DNA of 51,158 bases from a virus. The stretch spans positions 1 to 51,158 of the IMG/VR virus record IMGVR_UViG_3300032294_001048. One strand, 5' to 3'. Both the position numbers and the translations under genes were made by a program. Of this stretch, positions 2 through 45,790 are shown piece by piece (position 1 is the stretch's first letter; each line of letters opens with the position of its first letter). The notes beneath the pieces were generated by a model. The model worked only from the letters and a program-made list of their open reading frames with translations, searched no databases and was not told where the DNA came from.

Positions 2-3000
2 GAGGCGGCACAAGGAGCGCAGGAACAACTTGCTGCGAACGTTGCTTTGCAGCGCGAGGGCATGGAAGTTCCGACGATGCGCGGTGTGTTCTCGTCAGGT
101 GCTTTGGAAGGTATCGCAGGATTCGGAGTCGGCGCACCACTCGGGGCTATTCAAAAAGCTTCGGTTGCAGAGGATGCCGCGAGAAAAGCAGAAGAAGCAG
201 ACGCCCCGCAAACAGCGAATGCTATCCGCAAAGAGGCGCAGCAAACAGTAGCCGCAGAGAAGGCTGTCGTTCAAGAGGAGCAGGATATCGAAGATACGGA
301 AAAAGAAATGGTTCCCATCCAAGAGGAATACAAAGTTCCAGCAAAAGAAGAGTTCAAAACAACCTTTGCCAAGATGTCTCCGGAATCCATCGCTCAGACC
401 GAGCAGGGCTTCCGCGAAGAACTCGAAAACGAAGACGCGGATACCCGTGCATTCGCTCAAACGGGGTTGGACGCTCTTGCCGAGTTCCGTGCAGGGGTAG
501 CACCCACACCGATTACAGTCCCGCCCGTAGGGGAGGTCGCTCCCGCAGTTGCGGCTGTTACGCAGCCAGCAGCACCCGCCGCACCCGTTACGCCTGCTGC
601 ACCAGCAGAACCCGTCGCGCCAGCAGCCACAGCAGAACCAATAACTTCTGCCGATGCACAAGTAATAAACAATTTGCGCTCTGTAGCGGAAAACACGGCA
701 AACCGCGAACAGATTTCCGCGCTATCCGCCGCAGGGCTGGTCGATATTATCAAAGGCCAGCCCGTTATCAACGAAGACGGAGAGGCTATCCTAGCGCAAG
801 CACAGGCTCCCCTACCGCGCCTTACTCCAGAGGAGAGGGTTTCCGAGATACAGGCCGCGCCAGCACCTACAGCAGAAGCCCCCGCTATTGTTGAACAAGC
901 ACCTACTATCTCGGAAGAATCGCAAGTTTCCGAGATAGTTAGTCCTGCTCCAGCGGAACCTGCACCAGCACAAGCAGTAGCTCCAGTAGCACCAGCCACC
1001 GCACCTACTATCGGAGAAAAACCACCAACTTCTCCAATGATAGGCGCAGAGCCAACTCAACCCGCACCAGCGGAAGGAGTAGCGCAACCTTCAGCGGTAA
1101 CACCAGCACCGGAGATCGCCGCAGCGCCAGCACTAGTCACCGAGCAAGTTGCACCAGCAGAAGCTCCCGCGCCAGAGGTTGCGCCTGTAAAGCCATTGAC
1201 TGATGATGAGGCTGAAACTATCCGCGATGTAATTACACTTCGTAAATCTCAAGGCAGAGAACCAAATCCAGAACAAGTTAAAAGACTCGCAGAATATGAT
1301 GCGAAGAAAGCTGGCGTTGAAGTTCAAGCGGGAGATATTGTTTCTAACATCGTTGTTGGACACCCAATGTTTGAGTCTCCGCAACCAGAGCTTAACAACC
1401 TTGTCCCAATTAAAGTTACAACCAAGGAGCAACTTGCATCGCCAATACAACGAGCGCAACAAGTTCGTGATAAAGCGCAGTCCTACATTGGGAACTACCA
1501 AGTTGAGCAAGCGAAGGCGAAAACTCCCGCGCAAAAGAAAGCATTCGCAAAGAAGTTTACTCCTTCAGAACTCGCTCGCCAACGTGATATTTTAGACTAC
1601 ATCAAAAATGATGTGATGCCAGAGTTGGATAGGCTTGAGAAATTAGCACCATCTACCACCCCCGCAGTATCGGAAACAATAACAGAGCCAGCAGCACCAA
1701 CAGGCATCGCAGTAGGCAACCGCATCAAGCTCGGTAAAAGCCCGCAGACCTACGTAGTAGAAAAAGTCATCCCGCAGACAGCAACAGAGCGCGATCTAGG
1801 CGAGCAGTATTACTCCGTAAAGAACGAGCGAACTGGAGAGACGCAGGTCGTAGAGAAGAACGACGTAAAGCCTGTAAAGGCGAAAGCAGACAAGCGATAT
1901 AATCCGTTGGGATACGACATTGCTGAAATGGTGGAAGACATAAAGGCTGGCAAGACCGACACGCCCTTCCGTGCGGTAAACCAAGTAATCAAAGAAGCTC
2001 AGGAACTTCGGGGGCGAATTATGCTTGAGGCGATGCGCCGTAAGCAACCTAGGAAGGTCGGCAAGGCGGCAATTTTGGAGCGTATTGCTAGGGAGCGCAG
2101 CGCGGGAACAATCAGCGAGGCTACAGCCCGTGCGCTTACAGATTTTGTAAATAGCGTAAGAGAAGATGCGATAGGCGATACTTCAATCTCCATCCGCCAA
2201 AAGGGAGTAAGCAACTTTGATTTCGCTGATAATCTAGTTACATTCTTTTTGAACCAAGACAAAGGCGATTTTGGTGCAGCAGTCGGCATACACGAGTTCT
2301 GGCACGGACTTTCGAGGTTTCTTCCCGAATCTGAAGTGCAAAAAATCAACAAAGAATACGTCAAAGAACTTGAGGCATATCTCAAAAAAAACCCGTGGTT
2401 CCTCGCTTTTGTCGGGCGATACTCGCTTTCTGTTGAGCAGTTTAATGAATACAAGAAGTTTAATCCAGTAGAGGCGGAAACAAAGCTTGAACCAGTGCGT
2501 GATGCACAGGGCAACATCATAAAATACAAGATCAAATTTGATAAGAGCAACTATCGCTACATCATGCTGGACGAGTTCATTGCGGAAAAGATGACCGATC
2601 TTGTTATTGGTAAACAAGCGGTTCCAAATACATTCTTCGGCAAACTCGCCAAGGTATTCCGCGAATTTTTGGCGCTCATCAAGGCTCGGCTTGGTCTTGA
2701 ACCTTACGAGAAATTTTACCAACTCGTCACATCCACCAGCGATAAATTGATTCTGCAAAGAACATCAGGTGTTGCCGCGCCAATCCAAATATACGATCCC
2801 GTCGAATACGACTATTCTACTCGCAGAATGATGGCGGTAGAGGGTGAGCCTACAGCAGAAGCCGCGCCAGAAGAAGCTCCGCAAAGGAAGCCCCGCCCCA
2901 CGACAATCCAGCGATTGATCGAAGCGACAACGGGAGTGAAGCGCAAGCGTGACTTGTTAACGATAAACGAGAAGACCGCGCTGAAGGATCAACTCAAACT

Positions 3001-6000
3001 CGGGGCGAAGAAGCGCAGGTTGGATGCCGCGCAGCAGAAGGAGTTCGTAAAAGACCTGACAGCCCAACTCCGCGAGGAGGCAATTCGCGGTAGGGTAAAA
3101 GCCCCGCAGCTTCGCGCTATCGTCAACAAGGCGATGCAAGTTCGTTTCGACAACGACGCATCTATCCTCTCGTTCTTGAACTACGCGAACAAGGTGATCG
3201 ACAACGCGAATTACGACAAGGACTTGTCGGATGCGAAGAAGGCGATCAAATCCGCAAAAAGACTCGCCAAGCAGAAGGATGTTCCAGCCCCAGCGCAGGG
3301 AATCTTAAAGAGATTCGCCAACATCAATCCGTCCGACATAGATAACCCCGGTGACTTCGCTCTTGTGTTGAACGAGTATATGAAGGGATACGGCCCAGTG
3401 ACTGCGGAGGATTACGTTGTTGTCCCCGACGTGGAGATGGAGGCATATCTCGATGATCCAGAGGTCGGGCTGCTCAAGCAAAGCGAAGACGCAAAAGCAG
3501 AGCGCGATCAAATGGCGCTCATCAATTCGCTGAATGCCGAACTTGGGAAAGAGGGGCTGACCGAGGAGGAGAAGAATGACATTTTGAATATGTCGGAGGA
3601 AGATTTCTCCAAGATGATCCAGCAGCGCAAGGCAGATACGCAAAACGAAAAGCGTGTCGCCCGTGCCGAAGCTATCGAAAAGGCGATAAACGACATTGCC
3701 GCAAATTCACAGATCGCGCTGGTCAACTATCAAAACCCAGAGATGACCGCAGACCAGAAGCGAATTCTCGATCTCGTAAAGCAGGTAGAACTGGATCAAC
3801 TTGATCTTGGTTCGCGGAAGGAATACATCCGAATTGCGAATAGCATCTTGGTAAACAACGGATTCTTCGGTTCAAGAAAGTTCGCCAGTAAGGTGCTTGG
3901 TCAGCTAGGCGCAAAAGAGGCTGCAAAAGACTCCAAACAAACAAAACGCTACAATGCGATGTTCAAGTTTCTTGAAGGGATGATTGGAGAAAGGATTTCC
4001 AAGTCGATAAACTTGAGCGTCCAGTCTATCGCCGACACGTTCCGCAATATCGCTGGTAAGGATGGCGCTCCAAAACTTCTTGTCCAGATGGGCATGGGTG
4101 AGCTTGCAAGGGGTCAGGCTACCGCCAACAAGATGAACGCACAAATATCCGATGCGATTAGTGGTGTCTTTGAAAAGATCGAAAAGGAAACTGGTCTAAA
4201 GATTTCAGAAAGACGCGGATCGTTTGCGATGGGTGTTGCTGGAAACTTGCTGCAAGTAGACCCGTCAGAGACAGAAGCGCAAGGCATACAAAGAATCAGA
4301 AACCTTATCGAGCAAGACATTGCGATTAAGGAGAAATCTCCGTCACGAGAAGATAGGGAAAGTGCTGTCTTTGTTAAGCGGGCATTGGACGAGGTATATG
4401 CCGACAGCGTAGAGGGCATTCTTGCGAACCTAAAGGCCGCGCATCCGGCACACTACGAAGCCCTTGTTTTCTTAAAAGATGAGATTCTTCCAGAATACAA
4501 ACCCTTGTTAAAGGAACACGACGAATTGTTTAATAACCAAACGGACAATTATGAGAACGTCAACTATCTCCCCATCCGATACAGGGGCATTGATTTTGAG
4601 ATCAAGGCTCCAGAGGACTTAATTCAAAGGCAGTTCCGCGATGTAACCGAGCCGAAGCAATCTCCCAATACGATTAAGCGCAAGAAGCTCACCACCCTTC
4701 CGCCCGGCAGGGTATTCGATTACAACCTTACAAGGAATGTGATAAACGCGCTTTCAGACCAAATCACAGCGGCGAATACGAACCCAGCTTGGCAGCAGAT
4801 TATTTCCTTCTTGGCGTCTCCCGATGCGGCAGAAGCTGTAGGAGGCGTGGAGAACCTTGATTTCATCAAACAGCGATTGGGTGGTCTGGCAAGAGCAAGG
4901 GCGCGGACATACGCAACAACTGGTGCAGAGCGCATTGCAGATGCGTTTGCCAACCTCACACGCAGGTTCGGTATCGGTCTAGCTCTTGGTGGATACGGAC
5001 AGTTCTTCAAGCAATTCCCGTCACAAACAGCGACAACTCTTGCGAATGTTAGAGATGCAGGACTCCTCGCAGAAAGCACAAGGGATTTGCTGGAAGGAAA
5101 GGCTCAAGGGATTTTATCGCAATTCTCTATCGGAGAGCGCGGTGAAATTGCTGGTGGAACAAAGTGGATCAACCAGATGGAAGGCAACTTCGGCAAGGTG
5201 CGCAAATTCTACGAGGAAGGCAGGTGGGCTGAATTCTCCGATGCGTTTGAGAGGCTGAATAACATGTGGCTCTTTGCTCTGAAGAAGTCGGATTATCTCG
5301 CCGCTGGCGCTGGATGGCTGGCGTATTACCGCAAACATCTTAAAGACAAAGGCATCGAGTTCACTGGATGGGAAAACGAAACGAATCTCATAAATCAAAA
5401 CGACCCGTCTCGTATGGAAGCCGCTGTCTACGCCGAGCAAATGATCGACATGTATCAAGGTTCGTCCGACCCGACCAAAATGGCTGAACTCTCCCAACGC
5501 GGGCAGAACGGATACGAGAATCTTTTCAAAGCTATCTTCATGCCGTTCTTCTCGTTCGTGCTGCAAGAACGCTCCCGCATACTTTCCGACACGCGAGACA
5601 TCGCCTTTGGTGACGCAAATCAGAAAGCACAAGGCGCTGCTGGTATGGGTGGAACGATTGCCGGAATGCTCATCTTCCACACAATGCGTCGGTTCTTGCT
5701 GCCAGCCGTCGCTGCTGGAGGAGCTTCAGCAATCTACGCTTTACTCGGCGTGGATATGGACGAACCCGACGAAGAGAAACAACAAGAGGAAGCAAACAAG
5801 ATTTGGCGCAGGTTCAGCGCGGAAGTGTTCTCAAACATCGTTGTCGGCGGATTCGGTAGCATTGCGGAAAACCGATTCGTGGATGCGGTCAACTATTCCT
5901 TCTATATTATCGAATCGCAGATCGAAAACGAGAACGTGCTGGATGATAAGGGCGAGGTTATGTCGTTCGACAAATACCAGAAGGAACGCTCGCCATTCTA

Positions 6001-6295
6001 CCGCTACACGGGCATGGGGGCGGATTCCAGCTTCGGCATGTTGGACATCATGCCGGGGCAGATCAGCGAACTTCGCAAGAGGGTGGAGGAACTGACCAGC
6101 GAGGAGCTTGCAGAAACCCTGACTCCAGAAGAGCGTCGTGTCCTTTACGTTGCGGGATTCAGCGAACTTATTTACACAATGCGCTTGAACGACACGGACG
6201 TTGCGAGGATGATTAGGCAAATGAATAGAGACGTGATCGAGCAGTCTAAAGAGCGCGAGAAGGCAGAGAAGAGACTACAGAACCTTTACAAGTAA
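2..6295 (+). CDS. Giant phage protein, 5'-truncated, with HExxH motif; likely virion-associated
   Basis: The frame is open to the window edge with no in-frame ATG before codon 20, so the true start lies upstream and only about 2,097 codons are visible. Numbering residues from base 47, about 150-390 is a Pro/Ala-rich linker. An HEFWH zinc-peptidase-like motif sits at about 749-753, followed some 100 residues later by D-E-F-I-A-E-K, which could supply the third ligand. Long charged helical stretches fill about 950-1,700. A hydrophobic segment near 1,865-1,905 could be membrane-active. The C-terminal third resembles the 'large polyvalent protein' associated domains (LPD38-like) found in giant phage proteins; that is recognition from memory, not a search. 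Very long multi-domain phage proteins of this kind are usually packaged and ejected with the DNA. I infer an ejected internal protein; a host-takeover polyprotein is the alternative. The next gene overlaps its stop codon (TAATG). Confidence 0.75.
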   Translation, partial: EAAQGAQEQLAANVALQREGMEVPTMRGVFSSGALEGIAGFGVGAPLGAIQKASVAEDAARKAEEADAPQTANAIRKEAQQTVAAEKAVVQEEQDIEDTEKEMVPIQEEYKVPAKEEFKTTFAKMSPESIAQTEQGFREELENEDADTRAFAQTGLDALAEFRAGVAPTPITVPPVGEVAPAVAAVTQPAAPAAPVTPAAPAEPVAPAATAEPITSADAQVINNLRSVAENTANREQISALSAAGLVDIIKGQPVINEDGEAILAQAQAPLPRLTPEERVSEIQAAPAPTAEAPAIVEQAPTISEESQVSEIVSPAPAEPAPAQAVAPVAPATAPTIGEKPPTSPMIGAEPTQPAPAEGVAQPSAVTPAPEIAAAPALVTEQVAPAEAPAPEVAPVKPLTDDEAETIRDVITLRKSQGREPNPEQVKRLAEYDAKKAGVEVQAGDIVSNIVVGHPMFESPQPELNNLVPIKVTTKEQLASPIQRAQQVRDKAQSYIGNYQVEQAKAKTPAQKKAFAKKFTPSELARQRDILDYIKNDVMPELDRLEKLAPSTTPAVSETITEPAAPTGIAVGNRIKLGKSPQTYVVEKVIPQTATERDLGEQYYSVKNERTGETQVVEKNDVKPVKAKADKRYNPLGYDIAEMVEDIKAGKTDTPFRAVNQVIKEAQELRGRIMLEAMRRKQPRKVGKAAILERIARERSAGTISEATARALTDFVNSVREDAIGDTSISIRQKGVSNFDFADNLVTFFLNQDKGDFGAAVGIHEFWHGLSRFLPESEVQKINKEYVKELEAYLKKNPWFLAFVGRYSLSVEQFNEYKKFNPVEAETKLEPVRDAQGNIIKYKIKFDKSNYRYIMLDEFIAEKMTDLVIGKQAVPNTFFGKLAKVFREFLALIKARLGLEPYEKFYQLVTSTSDKLILQRTSGVAAPIQIYDPVEYDYSTRRMMAVEGEPTAEAAPEEAPQRKPRPTTIQRLIEATTGVKRKRDLLTINEKTALKDQLKLGAKKRRLDAAQQKEFVKDLTAQLREEAIRGRVKAPQLRAIVNKAMQVRFDNDASILSFLNYANKVIDNANYDKDLSDAKKAIKSAKRLAKQKDVPAPAQGILKRFANINPSDIDNPGDFALVLNEYMKGYGPVTAEDYVVVPDVEMEAYLDDPEVGLLKQSEDAKAERDQMALINSLNAELGKEGLTEEEKNDILNMSEEDFSKMIQQRKADTQNEKRVARAEAIEKAINDIAANSQIALVNYQNPEMTADQKRILDLVKQVELDQLDLGSRKEYIRIANSILVNNGFFGSRKFASKVLGQLGAKEAAKDSKQTKRYNAMFKFLEGMIGERISKSINLSVQSIADTFRNIAGKDGAPKLLVQMGMGELARGQATANKMNAQISDAISGVFEKIEKETGLKISERRGSFAMGVAGNLLQVDPSETEAQGIQRIRNLIEQDIAIKEKSPSREDRESAVFVKRALDEVYADSVEGILANLKAAHPAHYEALVFLKDEILPEYKPLLKEHDELFNNQTDNYENVNYLPIRYRGIDFEIKAPEDLIQRQFRDVTEPKQSPNTIKRKKLTTLPPGRVFDYNLTRNVINALSDQITAANTNPAWQQIISFLASPDAAEAVGGVENLDFIKQRLGGLARARARTYATTGAERIADAFANLTRRFGIGLALGGYGQFFKQFPSQTATTLANVRDAGLLAESTRDLLEGKAQGILSQFSIGERGEIAGGTKWINQMEGNFGKVRKFYEEGRWAEFSDAFERLNNMWLFALKKSDYLAAGAGWLAYYRKHLKDKGIEFTGWENETNLINQNDPSRMEAAVYAEQMIDMYQGSSDPTKMAELSQRGQNGYENLFKAIFMPFFSFVLQERSRILSDTRDIAFGDANQKAQGAAGMGGTIAGMLIFHTMRRFLLPAVAAGGASAIYALLGVDMDEPDEEKQQEEANKIWRRFSAEVFSNIVVGGFGSIAENRFVDAVNYSFYIIESQIENENVLDDKGEVMSFDKYQKERSPFYRYTGMGADSSFGMLDIMPGQISELRKRVEELTSEELAETLTPEERRVLYVAGFSELIYTMRLNDTDVARMIRQMNRDVIEQSKEREKAEKRLQNLYK

Positions 6296-20339: not shown

Positions 20340-21527
20340 ATGTCACAATACAATCTCGCTGATGTGAATCAGCAACTCCAGCAAGAAGCTGGTCGTATCG
20401 GAGAAATGATCTCCGCGAAACTTATCGGAACCGATGTGTGGAACCGCCTCATCAAGCAGGATACCTTCCCTGCCGGAATGGGTGAGTCCATCCAGACCCT
20501 TATCCAAGAGCGTTCGACTGTCGGAAACGTCAGTTCTACAGCTTGGGAAGACGTCGGAACCAACGACGGAACAGGCAATTCCTGTAACCCGACCCCGCAA
20601 ACCGTTGAGTTTGCCCGCACCCTCAAGAGCTACAACCTCCAGCAGTCGGCTATCCGTAGCCCCGGCTTCTGCGTCAACGACCTCCGCACTGCGTGGAAGG
20701 CCGAGGAGCAGTTGGCTGGTGAGGTTAAGGTTCTCAAAGAGAACAGCCAGTGGTTCTGGAGCAACCGTTACCGTGACGAGTTCATCCGTCTCTGCGGCAA
20801 CAAAGTTGTTACCGACGTGAACGACACGCTCGCCATGTCTGTCAGCGGTTCGGATCAGGCGTTCCCCGCCGTGGCCCCGACCTTCGCTCTCGACCAAGGT
20901 ATGCTCGACCAGTTCTATCTCGATCTGGCTCGTGATTCCGCCGAGGGGCATTACGCAATGGTTGACGGTGAGCCGCAATACGCGCTCATCTGCTCGCCTG
21001 AAACGTCGAACTACATTAAGAAGCAGAACTCTGACATCCGTCAAGACCTCCGCTTCTCCTCGCAGGTTGACGAGTTGATCAAGCCTTTCGGCGCTTCGTT
21101 CGCCTACTCTGGCTTCGTTCACATCGTTGATCGTCAGGCTCCTCGTTACAACTTCGTTAACGGGCAGTTTGTCCGCGTTCCGTTCTATGCGAACGCCGCA
21201 GCCACCACGGGCAGCAAAGCGGTTGTCAATCCGGCTTACCGCACCGCTCCTTACGAGGTTAGCGTTATCTACAACCCGCACGTCTTCACTTCGCGTGTTG
21301 CTCAGGTCATCACCAGCCCCGGTTCGGGACTGAAGTTCGATCCTGTCAACTATCGCGGTGAGTTCATCTGGATCAACAACAAGGACAACGTGAACAACAT
21401 CCTTGGCTTGACCGGATACTTCTACGCTCTGTTCATGCAGGGTTCTCAGCCGAAGCGTGTTGAGTGGGGTTATGCTATCATGCACCTCCGCTGCTCGCCC
21501 GCCACGATCTACCAGTCCTGCTCCTAA
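20340..21527 (+). CDS. Major capsid protein
   Basis: The 395-residue protein follows portal and scaffold and has strongly biased codon use, expected for the most abundant virion protein. It opens with a charged helix, includes W-F-W-S-N-R-Y-R-D-E-F, and ends in hydrophobic beta-rich segments (F-Y-A-L-F-M-Q-G). Length and order fit an HK97-fold capsid protein. No motif is diagnostic, but no other gene fits. An unusually long antisense open frame on the minus strand is explained by its codon bias. Confidence 0.85.
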   Translation: MSQYNLADVNQQLQQEAGRIGEMISAKLIGTDVWNRLIKQDTFPAGMGESIQTLIQERSTVGNVSSTAWEDVGTNDGTGNSCNPTPQTVEFARTLKSYNLQQSAIRSPGFCVNDLRTAWKAEEQLAGEVKVLKENSQWFWSNRYRDEFIRLCGNKVVTDVNDTLAMSVSGSDQAFPAVAPTFALDQGMLDQFYLDLARDSAEGHYAMVDGEPQYALICSPETSNYIKKQNSDIRQDLRFSSQVDELIKPFGASFAYSGFVHIVDRQAPRYNFVNGQFVRVPFYANAAATTGSKAVVNPAYRTAPYEVSVIYNPHVFTSRVAQVITSPGSGLKFDPVNYRGEFIWINNKDNVNNILGLTGYFYALFMQGSQPKRVEWGYAIMHLRCSPATIYQSCS

Positions 21528-21554
21528 GCAGTTGGTAGCGTAAGCTACGCTCAC

Positions 21555-21585
21555 GGTGCGGGGAGGTTCGATCCCTCCTCGCACC
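21555..21585 (+). ncRNA. tRNA acceptor/T-arm minihelix
   Basis: GGTGCGGGGAGG pairs with CCTCCTCGCACC over 12 bp (one G-T wobble) around a 7-base loop TTCGATC, which matches the tRNA T-loop consensus TTCRANY. This is exactly a 7-bp acceptor stacked on a 5-bp T stem. A D-loop-like AGTTGGTA lies just upstream (near 21530). No 5' acceptor or anticodon arm completes a full tRNA. It sits 27 bases after the capsid stop and 24 before the next ATG. It may be an RNA-processing signal or a tRNA remnant. Confidence 0.6.
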
Positions 21586-21609
21586 TTAACTAAAGAAAGA
21601 TCGAACAAT

Positions 21610-21933
21610 ATGAAAAACGAAGGCAAAGGCGGAATGGCTGTTATTATCGGTATGGGCAAACCCGAGAAAGAGGGCGTCGAGTTCGATGCTCCAGAAGGAT
21701 TCGATTACTCCGATATGAAAGAAGGCGAGGAGAAAGAGGTTCTCGCTAAAGTTTGTTACTGCGGAGATGGAGAGTTCACCCTTGTTTCAATCGACGGGTA
21801 TCCTCTTGTTAAAGAAGAAGAGGAAGAGATGGAAGAAGAGGAGATGCCCGAGGGTGAAATGGAAGAGGAAGAGTCCGTAGAAGAGGAAGTGCCGTTCCAA
21901 GAGCGTCTACGTCAACGCGCAGGAATTGCTTGA
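21610..21933 (+). CDS. Small acidic head/neck protein
   Basis: This 107-residue protein starts with ATG 21610 and contains a Gly-rich N-terminus, a C-Y-C-G-D-G segment, and a very acidic run of Glu from residue about 70 to 95 (E-E-E-E-M-E-E-E-E-M-P). Acidic proteins here often decorate or stabilise the capsid or connector. The call is by location only. Confidence 0.6.
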   Translation: MKNEGKGGMAVIIGMGKPEKEGVEFDAPEGFDYSDMKEGEEKEVLAKVCYCGDGEFTLVSIDGYPLVKEEEEEMEEEEMPEGEMEEEESVEEEVPFQERLRQRAGIA

Positions 21934-36879: not shown

Positions 36880-38112
36880 ATGAAAGGACAAACAAATGTG
36901 GATAATACCATCACAACTCTTGAATTCTGCGCCGGATATGGCGGCATTGGACTTGGCCTCAAAAACATCTTTGGCGAACGACTGCGATGCCTCGCATATT
37001 GTGAGCTTGAGGGGTTTGCTCAAGCCAATCTCATCAGTAAAATGGAAAAAGGACTCTTGGATGTCGCACCTCTTTGGAACGATCTTAAGACCTTCCCTTA
37101 CGGAAAATTTCACGGACTGGTGGACATCCTCATTGCAGGATACCCTTGCCAATCGTTCTCTGCCGCAGGAAAGCGAGCAGGTAAAGATGACCCAAGACAC
37201 CTCTGGCCTTGGATCGCAGACGGAATTCGCGTTCTTCGACCAAGAGCCTGCTTCCTCGAAAATGTCGAAGGACACATTTCGTTGGGACTCTCCACAGTCG
37301 TTAGCGATCTGGAAGAGTTGGGTTACAAGGTGTCGTGGGGAATATTCTCTGCGAGTGAAGTCGGGGCGCCTCACCAGCGGAAGCGAGTTTTTATCTTGGC
37401 CCACCGCAGCGGCGAGGGATTTCAAGGGCGAGAGTGGATCGGGCAGACAAGAACGCAAGGGGAATCCAGCGGACACGCTACCGAATGCAGTAGCTCAATG
37501 GCCAACTCCGCAGACTGGAGAGGCGAAGGTTTGCATGACTGGAACGCAGAACCAGAGAATGCTATCCCACGCTGTGCATGGCCCAGCCGCCCCAGCGAAC
37601 TGGTCAACGCCGAACACAATGGACACGCTGCCACCAAAGTCGCCGGAGGGCATTCAACGAGTGCTGACCCACGATGGGCGCAAGAATCGGAAGTCCACAG
37701 GCAATCTTCGGGAGGATGTAGTTCAATTTGGCCCAGCCGCCCCGGCCAACCACAATACGCATGGGAGCCGCCAAGGGTGGTGGGGAACTCCAGCAGCCAA
37801 CGATGCGAACAAGACTCCGCATTGCGAGGTGAACAGCAATCAAGCGGGACTAGCGAAGAGTGTGGGGCTGGAGTTGCAGAAAAACCAGACGGGAAAATTG
37901 AACGGACAATGGGTTACACAATTGATGGGACTTCCGATGGGCTGGGTTACGCCGAGTTGTCCAGCCTCTGTGATTCGGAACTGGCCGAGATTCGTGAGTG
38001 GATGGTTAAGTGCGACAATCGCACCGACGAACTCCGACTCTTGGGCAACGGAGTCGTGCCAGCCACCGCCGAACGAGCTTTTCGAGTGCTGATGGAGGAA
38101 CTGCTAAAATAA
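36880..38112 (+). CDS. DNA (cytosine-5)-methyltransferase
   Basis: ATG 36880 follows an ACAAAC-rich leader. The 410-residue protein has motif I (F-C-A-G-Y-G-G-I-G), motif IV (G-Y-P-C-Q-S-F, catalytic Cys), motif VI (F-L-E-N-V-E), motif VIII (Q-R-K-R-V) and motifs IX-X (R-L-L-G-N-G-V-V-P). The middle 190 residues, normally the target-recognition domain, are unusually Ser/Gly/Pro-rich because a second gene shares the bases. It would methylate phage DNA against restriction. Confidence 0.88.
   Translation: MKGQTNVDNTITTLEFCAGYGGIGLGLKNIFGERLRCLAYCELEGFAQANLISKMEKGLLDVAPLWNDLKTFPYGKFHGLVDILIAGYPCQSFSAAGKRAGKDDPRHLWPWIADGIRVLRPRACFLENVEGHISLGLSTVVSDLEELGYKVSWGIFSASEVGAPHQRKRVFILAHRSGEGFQGREWIGQTRTQGESSGHATECSSSMANSADWRGEGLHDWNAEPENAIPRCAWPSRPSELVNAEHNGHAATKVAGGHSTSADPRWAQESEVHRQSSGGCSSIWPSRPGQPQYAWEPPRVVGNSSSQRCEQDSALRGEQQSSGTSEECGAGVAEKPDGKIERTMGYTIDGTSDGLGYAELSSLCDSELAEIREWMVKCDNRTDELRLLGNGVVPATAERAFRVLMEELLK
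36896..38092 (+). CDS. Overprinted protein in +1 frame of the methyltransferase
   Basis: ATG 36896 opens a 398-codon frame nested almost wholly inside the methyltransferase. The product carries recurring W-P-T-P/W-S-T-P/W-G-T-P words (near W-P-T-A-A-A-R-D-F, W-P-T-P-Q-T-G-E) and other ordered segments. Proteins with this WPTP pattern are, from memory, a recurrent family that overlaps methyltransferases in phages and bacteria. The lack of stops over 1.2 kb and the protein-like order argue that it is real. Its function is unknown; an anti-restriction or regulatory role is a guess. Confidence 0.6.
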   Translation: MWIIPSQLLNSAPDMAALDLASKTSLANDCDASHIVSLRGLLKPISSVKWKKDSWMSHLFGTILRPSLTENFTDWWTSSLQDTLANRSLPQESEQVKMTQDTSGLGSQTEFAFFDQEPASSKMSKDTFRWDSPQSLAIWKSWVTRCRGEYSLRVKSGRLTSGSEFLSWPTAAARDFKGESGSGRQERKGNPADTLPNAVAQWPTPQTGEAKVCMTGTQNQRMLSHAVHGPAAPANWSTPNTMDTLPPKSPEGIQRVLTHDGRKNRKSTGNLREDVVQFGPAAPANHNTHGSRQGWWGTPAANDANKTPHCEVNSNQAGLAKSVGLELQKNQTGKLNGQWVTQLMGLPMGWVTPSCPASVIRNWPRFVSGWLSATIAPTNSDSWATESCQPPPNELFEC

Positions 38113-44931: not shown

Positions 44932-45242
44932 CAAGACAAGAGGCAATTCAGGAACAGATTGACGAGATCATGGACACTTTTGATTTTGATAAAGTCCACG
45001 ATGTTATGAAGTTCTTGGATTGGAGGTGGCAAAGAGCAGAAGAACCCCCCGACATTTACGAGATCAAGCAAGAAGCCAGAGAGCGATTGAAGCAGGCCGC
45101 AAAGAGCGGAGGCTCAAGCACAGGAGGGTTTACTGCCTACAAGACAGAAGGCGCGGACGAGAAAACTGGCGAGCCGTTCGTCCACTTGGAATTGTTCTTT
45201 GGCTTCCAGAGCGTCAACGACGGAACATCTTACGAAGAGTAA
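44928..45242 (+). CDS. Hypothetical protein, 104 aa
   Basis: GTG 44928 overlaps the preceding stop. The sequence is helical then beta-rich (F-V-H-L-E-L-F-F-G-F). No family. Confidence 0.5.
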   Translation: MTRQEAIQEQIDEIMDTFDFDKVHDVMKFLDWRWQRAEEPPDIYEIKQEARERLKQAAKSGGSSTGGFTAYKTEGADEKTGEPFVHLELFFGFQSVNDGTSYEE

Positions 45243-45790
45243 TGTTCACGAAGATCGGTCATCTACCAAGGCATCAATACATTTATATTGATAGCTCGTT
45301 TACGCACGAGGAGCCACGAGGATTGGTCGAAGCCTGTTGGGTAGGGGTGACTGCCATCCCAGCGAGAACTTGGGGAATAAACGCCATCCTGCGCGAAGGC
45401 GGGGCACTATATCGTAACATCCCTCCGCATTTAGTCTCCTTCTCCCCCGAGAACGATACGCGTTGGACAATTTCGCAGGCGCAACTTTGGAACTGCTACG
45501 CTTTCGAGTTCACATTATTGGAAAACAATCATCTCTCTGGCCTCCGAGTCTCCGTATGGATCGACGGAAAGTTATACGGCGGGGAATATCTATTCAGCGC
45601 GGCCCACATTCTCGACGGATACAGCATGACACCGGAACAGGATAAGGAGTTTTTTTTCATCCGTCTCGACAACAACAGGCTGACGATCCAACCAACTAAC
45701 AGAGTTGCATTTGTGGATCGTTCTTTTATTGTTTCCGATATTCCGATGCCGAAATTGAAATTGAACAACCAGATTTTCACCTGCGAATAA
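45242..45790 (+). CDS. Hypothetical protein, 182 aa
   Basis: ATG 45242 (TAATG overlap). Beta-rich sequence (Q-Y-I-Y-I-D-S, F-E-F-T-L-L-E), no membrane segment. It lies directly before TerS and could belong to the packaging or head module. Confidence 0.5.
   Translation: MFTKIGHLPRHQYIYIDSSFTHEEPRGLVEACWVGVTAIPARTWGINAILREGGALYRNIPPHLVSFSPENDTRWTISQAQLWNCYAFEFTLLENNHLSGLRVSVWIDGKLYGGEYLFSAAHILDGYSMTPEQDKEFFFIRLDNNRLTIQPTNRVAFVDRSFIVSDIPMPKLKLNNQIFTCE

Follow-up and report, generated by a model that had tools for sequence, protein, structure and literature searches.

The two-subunit C5-cytosine DNA methyltransferase M.EcoHK31I (YGGCCR) is the closest known case to the locus that we describe here, and its small gene likewise lies inside the large gene, in another reading frame. 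According to the published description, motifs I–VIII and X of M.EcoHK31I are on one polypeptide, motif IX is on the other, and the recognition domain is assigned to the large subunit (PMC3404938). In M.AquI, and in consecutive split pairs from phages such as Peaches (gp77/gp76) and Samora (34/35), motifs I–VIII are on one chain, while recognition, motif IX, and motif X are on the other, and the two genes overlap by only ~20–30 nt. A third arrangement is found in the phages K1ind2 (gp32/gp33) and K1ind3 (ORF30/ORF29) and in Paenibacillus phage Tadhana (gp54/gp55), where a +1 ORF is nested within the C5-methyltransferase gene. Both genes of the K1ind2 and Tadhana pairs are annotated as “DNA methyltransferase,” so annotated nested pairs are already known; two-subunit C5-methyltransferases are known too. 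The K1ind3 record (L143:601-1530) names the nested gene “putative Mte8-like protein”; a literature search for “Mte8” gave no origin for the name. The C5-methyltransferases of some Bacillus phages (the SPbeta group, including mtbP) reportedly have several tandem target-recognising domains within one variable region (Trautner 1996, as cited in PMC12707154). These multispecific enzymes are single chains. A homing endonuclease that lies out of frame within a phage methylase (PMC11855218) is a different phenomenon.

We analysed a stretch of viral DNA of 51,158 nucleotides (IMG/VR record IMGVR_UViG_3300032294_001048), which we will refer to as the window. Judging from its sequence and that of its homologues, the window very probably has a single C5-cytosine DNA methyltransferase whose two subunits are encoded in overlapping frames. 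The subunits would be translated from one site and would form a heterodimer that protects the phage’s DNA. We call the two genes alpha and beta. As in M.EcoHK31I, with which we compared the locus by description only, motifs I–VIII and X are on alpha and motif IX is on beta. The nesting is similar as well: beta (36896–38092) lies in another frame within 36880–38112, and this is conserved in the homologues. Unlike in M.EcoHK31I, where the published description places recognition in the large subunit, the putative recognition part of the window’s enzyme is an array of cassettes in the second frame; also, the two genes are almost coextensive and have tandem starts. The nested phage pairs, which belong to the phrog_1008 family, share W-P-T-P cassettes and an LNPxW-type motif IX block with the window, but their beta genes are shorter and begin 88 or 202 nt inside alpha, whereas the starts in the window’s family are 2–8 nt apart. 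The consecutive pairs resemble the window in having motifs I–VIII apart from recognition and motif IX, and differ in that the window has motif X on alpha and a nearly complete overlap. The SPbeta group resembles the window in the tandem arrangement of modules, but those enzymes have no overlapping frame (mtbP has 41 stops in the +1 frame). In a limited literature search, we found no paper on overlapping genes that are coextensive in this way, on tandem starts at AUGUG, or on the shuffling of cassettes in a second frame.

The methyltransferase sits in the replication/recombination module of this 51-kb virus record. Upstream is a replication-initiation-like gene, and downstream are genes for an Erf annealing protein and a PD-(D/E)XK exonuclease. 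We scanned flanking ORFs and recognised no restriction endonuclease among them, so the locus looks like a solitary phage methyltransferase. Elsewhere in the window, a 2082-aa ORF (47–6295) has no PHROG match at 1e-3; two ORFs are almost exactly opposed (20340–21527 on the plus strand, 395 aa, and 20343–21659 on the minus strand, 438 aa); and an ORF that adjoins the terminase small subunit (45020–45790) matches phrog_3704 “ferredoxin” (5.6e-24).

All features of the gene pair are on the plus strand. A preliminary description of this DNA had reported a 398-codon frame at 36896–38092 in the +1 frame of the methyltransferase, and we confirmed this: beta runs from ATG 36896 to 38092 (398 aa) and is entirely within the methyltransferase ORF. 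That description had the methyltransferase begin at 36880, but ATG 36880 is probably only an alternative start. Alpha probably begins at GTG 36898 and runs to 38112, which would make its start codon overlap beta’s in the sequence ATGTG (36896–36900). The sequence AAAGGA (36883–36888), 7 nt upstream of ATG 36896, is probably a ribosome-binding site that serves both genes. In all 68 of the homologues that could be tested, beta’s ATG is 2, 5, or 8 nt ahead of a GTG or ATG for alpha (ATGTG in 34, an offset of 5 in 25, and an offset of 8 in 9). In 39 of these 68, alpha has no alternative start codon within the stretch searched. ATGTG is also found at the start of alpha in distant homologues from bacterial genomes (L111, L112, L116, L118, and L119).

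Alpha matches the C5-cytosine DNA methyltransferase family (PF00145; 5.8e-33, residues 12–182), and the catalytic motifs that the preliminary description listed are present, with one exception. Alpha contains motif I (CAGYGG, 36928–36945), motif IV with its PC (GYPCQSFS, 37138–37161), motif VI with its ENV (FLENVEGH, 37252–37275), motif VIII (HQRKRVFI, 37372–37395), and motif X (RTDELRLLGNGVVPATAERAF, 38020–38082), which is constrained in the alpha frame and matches phrog_1008. Motif IX had been assigned to alpha as well, but alpha lacks both motif IX and a target-recognition region in its own chain; these are found in the +1 frame. The sequence match between alpha and M.HhaI reaches only through motif VIII. 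The AlphaFold (AF2) model of alpha is folded at residues 11–180 and ~365–409, with pLDDT below 50 through nearly all of residues 190–358, and this central region is predicted to be a disordered linker. The model aligns with the large domain of M.HhaI, C-terminal end included, over 198 residues (Z = 20.5). DNA cytosine C5 methylation is the predicted activity of the locus.

Beta consists of an N-terminal region, the cassettes, and motif IX. The N-terminal quarter has no counterpart in single-chain enzymes. A conserved block of beta, SKMSKDTF...RGEYSLR (37256–37354), is predicted to be a helix. The profile phrog_1008 (“DNA methyltransferase”) matches beta at residues 76–353 (1.5e-20; profile positions 38–281), and the next part of the profile (293–319) matches motif X of alpha. 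In bacterial genomes, phrog_1008 is likewise divided over two open frames. Beta’s motif IX block (LNGQWVTQLMGLPMGW, 37898–37945) has the pattern LNxxWVxxLMGxPxGW and is constrained in the beta frame. The same block precedes motif X in gp76 of Mycobacterium phage Peaches and in the variant L120:2975-4864. In Peaches, gp77 has motifs I–VIII, while gp76 is a single chain that combines cassettes of the W-P-T-P type with the IX block and motif X; Samora 34/35 is arranged in the same way. In L120, alpha stops after WEPPRVC and motif X is at the end of a 630-codon open beta frame.

A model of beta alone, from a 64-row alignment, had low confidence (mean pLDDT 52.6, pTM 0.24). The alignments for folding were built without the homologues L001 and L003. 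A poor prediction for beta alone would be expected if beta requires alpha or DNA, and it proves nothing. A profile of beta had no matches to PDB sequences at E values up to 1. In Pfam, a sub-threshold match of beta to 1-cysPrx_C was judged to be due to chance.

We examined the second frame in the window and in 69 homologues from viral contigs, which were fetched by words from alpha or beta; these 70 sequences are non-redundant. In 69 of the 70, the +1 frame is free of internal stops, and the sole exception, L069, has one. Its alpha gene (L069:116-1911) is unusually long (1797 nt) and might contain an internal duplication. Within codons 6–180, all 70 sequences lack +1 stops. In the same sequences, the +2 frame has 9–32 stops. 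When we redrew the codons of alpha synonymously, using the codon usage of the other genes in the window, we expected about 4.9 stops in codons 6–180 and 6.9 in the whole gene, and the probability of zero stops was about 0.001 per sequence; the 70 homologues are related to each other, so they are not 70 independent draws. The open frame is thus far beyond chance by synonymous resampling. The preliminary description had proposed a search among homologues for second-frame stops without synonymous constraint; this comparison was run and dual coding stands. L117, at 33% identity, has a +1 stop near codon 101, and its cassette and motif IX part is open beyond that. In two other sequences, an early stop or frameshift interrupts the alpha frame, but another frame continues (+1 in L098:179-1451 and +2 in L121:2941-3769); these could be sequencing errors or decay.

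The recurring W-P-T-P words that had been noticed in the second frame turned out to be the openings of four cassettes. Across the homologues, the beta array spans SSWPT to LNPRWVE and comprises 1–10 segments that open with W-P-T-P or similar. In the window, these are cassette 1 (WPTAAARD..., family F5, 37397–37498), cassette 2 (WPTPQTGE..., 37499–37600), cassette 3 (WSTPNTMD..., 37601–37780), and cassette 4 (WGTPAAND..., family F14, 37781–37897). The end of cassette 3 overlaps WPSRPGQPQYAWEPPRV (37729–37779), an element in the middle of the array that is conserved and constrained in the alpha frame. We grouped 249 cassettes (24–60 aa) into 91 families, of which 44 are found at more than one locus, often at differing ordinal positions; the cassettes were parsed with a regular expression, so these counts are approximate. 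The N-terminal backbone of alpha is just 60% identical between the window and L018, yet cassettes 1 and 4 are shared with L018 at 97% and 91% nucleotide identity. More broadly, among 74 pairs of same-family cassettes with backbones below 70% identity, 25 pairs have cassettes that are at least 85% identical. The sharing of cassettes between diverged phages is best explained by recombinational exchange. Tandem exchangeable modules between motifs VIII and IX are also a feature of the multispecific phage C5-methyltransferases. The position of the cassettes between these motifs, along with their variability, suggests that they are the recognition-like part of the enzyme, and by analogy with the Bacillus phage enzymes, each cassette may recognise its own DNA site. 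A comparison of a cassette profile with SPbeta mtbP gave no match (E = 0.93); this profile is a short one, however, and mtbP is the single enzyme of that group that we tried.

We then compared substitutions by codon position in 25 independent pairs of homologues. Third positions of alpha evolve fastest near motifs I, IV–VI, and VIII, in codons 289–300, and near motif X. The pattern is reversed in codons 337–360, which correspond to the beta block LNPRWVETLMGLPxGW. There, alpha position 1 (which is beta position 3) has about 0.33 and 0.28 differences per codon, while alpha position 3 has 0.06 and 0.03. Four-fold degenerate sites in these codons differ in 2 of 203 comparisons for alpha and in 100 of 291 for beta. 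Within the cassettes, there were 490 changes at beta position 3, 115 at position 1, and 105 at position 2 (position 3 vs. position 2, p = 2e-60). Because the first cassette families were built from similarity of the beta protein, which might bias this test, we repeated it with frame-neutral DNA similarity (blastn). The result agreed with the protein-based test (588 vs. 241 changes, p = 3e-34), and the N-terminal part of alpha, as a control, went in the opposite direction (591 vs. 1062). Selection alternates along the gene: it acts in the alpha frame at motifs I–VIII and X and in the beta frame at the cassettes and motif IX. In codons 25–84 and 133–180, the divergence of alpha at four-fold sites is 0.21 and 0.34 of the value for motif X, which suggests that these regions are constrained by both frames; alternatively, they could be recombination blocks that differ in age. 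Given these frame-specific patterns, the Ser/Gly-rich middle of alpha is mostly a passenger. The preliminary description had taken this Ser/Gly/Pro-rich part to be a recognition region constrained by the other frame, but its amino acids change freely, and the recognition-like array is in the other frame.

These results can be set against other explanations of the second frame. Moderately long +1 runs occur in some other phage methyltransferases, as would be expected if the open frame were an untranslated by-product of base composition and of the conserved residues of alpha. Several of the runs that we inspected also include cassettes like those of beta, or a IX block, however, and the stops in mtbP, the synonymous resampling, and the frame-specific substitutions (including the frame-neutral control) also argue against this idea, whose probability seems negligible. 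Three findings support long dual coding and a real second protein, as the preliminary description proposed: the +1 frame is open, the starts are tandem, and selection is reciprocal. But the preliminary description viewed that protein as a separate gene overprinted in a complete methyltransferase. An unrelated new protein within a self-sufficient enzyme would fit a second frame that is long, open, and under selection, yet we consider it highly improbable, as beta itself carries the recognition-like cassettes and motif IX, is homologous to the corresponding part of split methyltransferases, and supplies just what alpha lacks.

Two further possibilities concern how the parts are divided. The selected segments, read across the frames, are in the same order as in a single-chain enzyme, so one chain could be imagined to arise by programmed frameshifting: motifs I–VIII from alpha, a shift to beta for the cassettes and motif IX, and a shift back for motif X. 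This requires two shifts. Also against it are the conserved tandem starts, a beta frame that stays open ahead of the junction and seems to be constrained there, and the independent genes, nested or consecutive, in related phages, and we think it very unlikely. It is most improbable that the central segment of alpha is the true target-recognition domain, with beta providing only motif IX. Although the subunits of M.EcoHK31I are described in this way in PMC3404938, where this is a prediction, in our family the cassette region is constrained in the beta frame while the alpha residues vary freely, and alpha is predicted to be disordered there.

Under the two-subunit model, ribosomes at a single binding site probably start at either the ATG of beta or the GTG/ATG of alpha, which would yield two independent products. 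Alpha would be the catalytic large domain, with AdoMet binding and catalysis (motifs I–VIII and X) and a long disordered linker. Beta would be the DNA recognition half, with its conserved N-terminal region, four W-P-T-P cassettes in place of a target-recognition domain, and motif IX. As for M.EcoHK31I, both polypeptides would be needed for methylation. The heterodimer would methylate cytosines at one or more sites in the phage DNA and so protect it from host restriction, and exchange of cassettes between homologues by recombination would change the specificity. The pair could plausibly have arisen from a single-chain enzyme: indels flanking the recognition and IX part would have shifted that part into the +1 frame, and beta would then have gained its own start. 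The genes are consecutive in Peaches, nested in K1ind2 and Tadhana, and coextensive in the window, and these arrangements could be steps in this process or alternatives to each other.

We also put forward a bolder idea, tentatively and at slightly less than even confidence, which draws on the analogy with multispecific enzymes. The second frame might be a combinatorial array in which each W-P-T-P cassette recognises a DNA sequence of its own, with about 1–10 cassettes per phage that are traded by recombination. The enzyme would then shield the phage against restriction at multiple sites and could be reprogrammed. Its recognition half would be written in the other frame, along almost the whole length of its catalytic half, and one AUGUG would start both. 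If so, the shared start could link the dosage of the two halves.

The same pairing is found in contigs from bacterial genomes (Verrucomicrobiota and other groups), in phage C75C1, and in Paenibacillus phages. Nested +1 ORFs are also found in phages of Escherichia, Salmonella, Mycobacterium, and Stenotrophomonas. What appeared to be a new overprinted gene would be one half of a widespread phage enzyme, a hidden half that is omitted from many annotations. Studies of specificity that use only the annotated gene would probably not succeed, since that gene’s frame would not include the recognition part. The family offers an overlap of ~400 codons in DNA phages, along which selection clearly switches frame, and a conserved overlapping start, AUGUG. 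Its exchangeable cassettes may form a natural library for recognition, and each of them could be tested singly.
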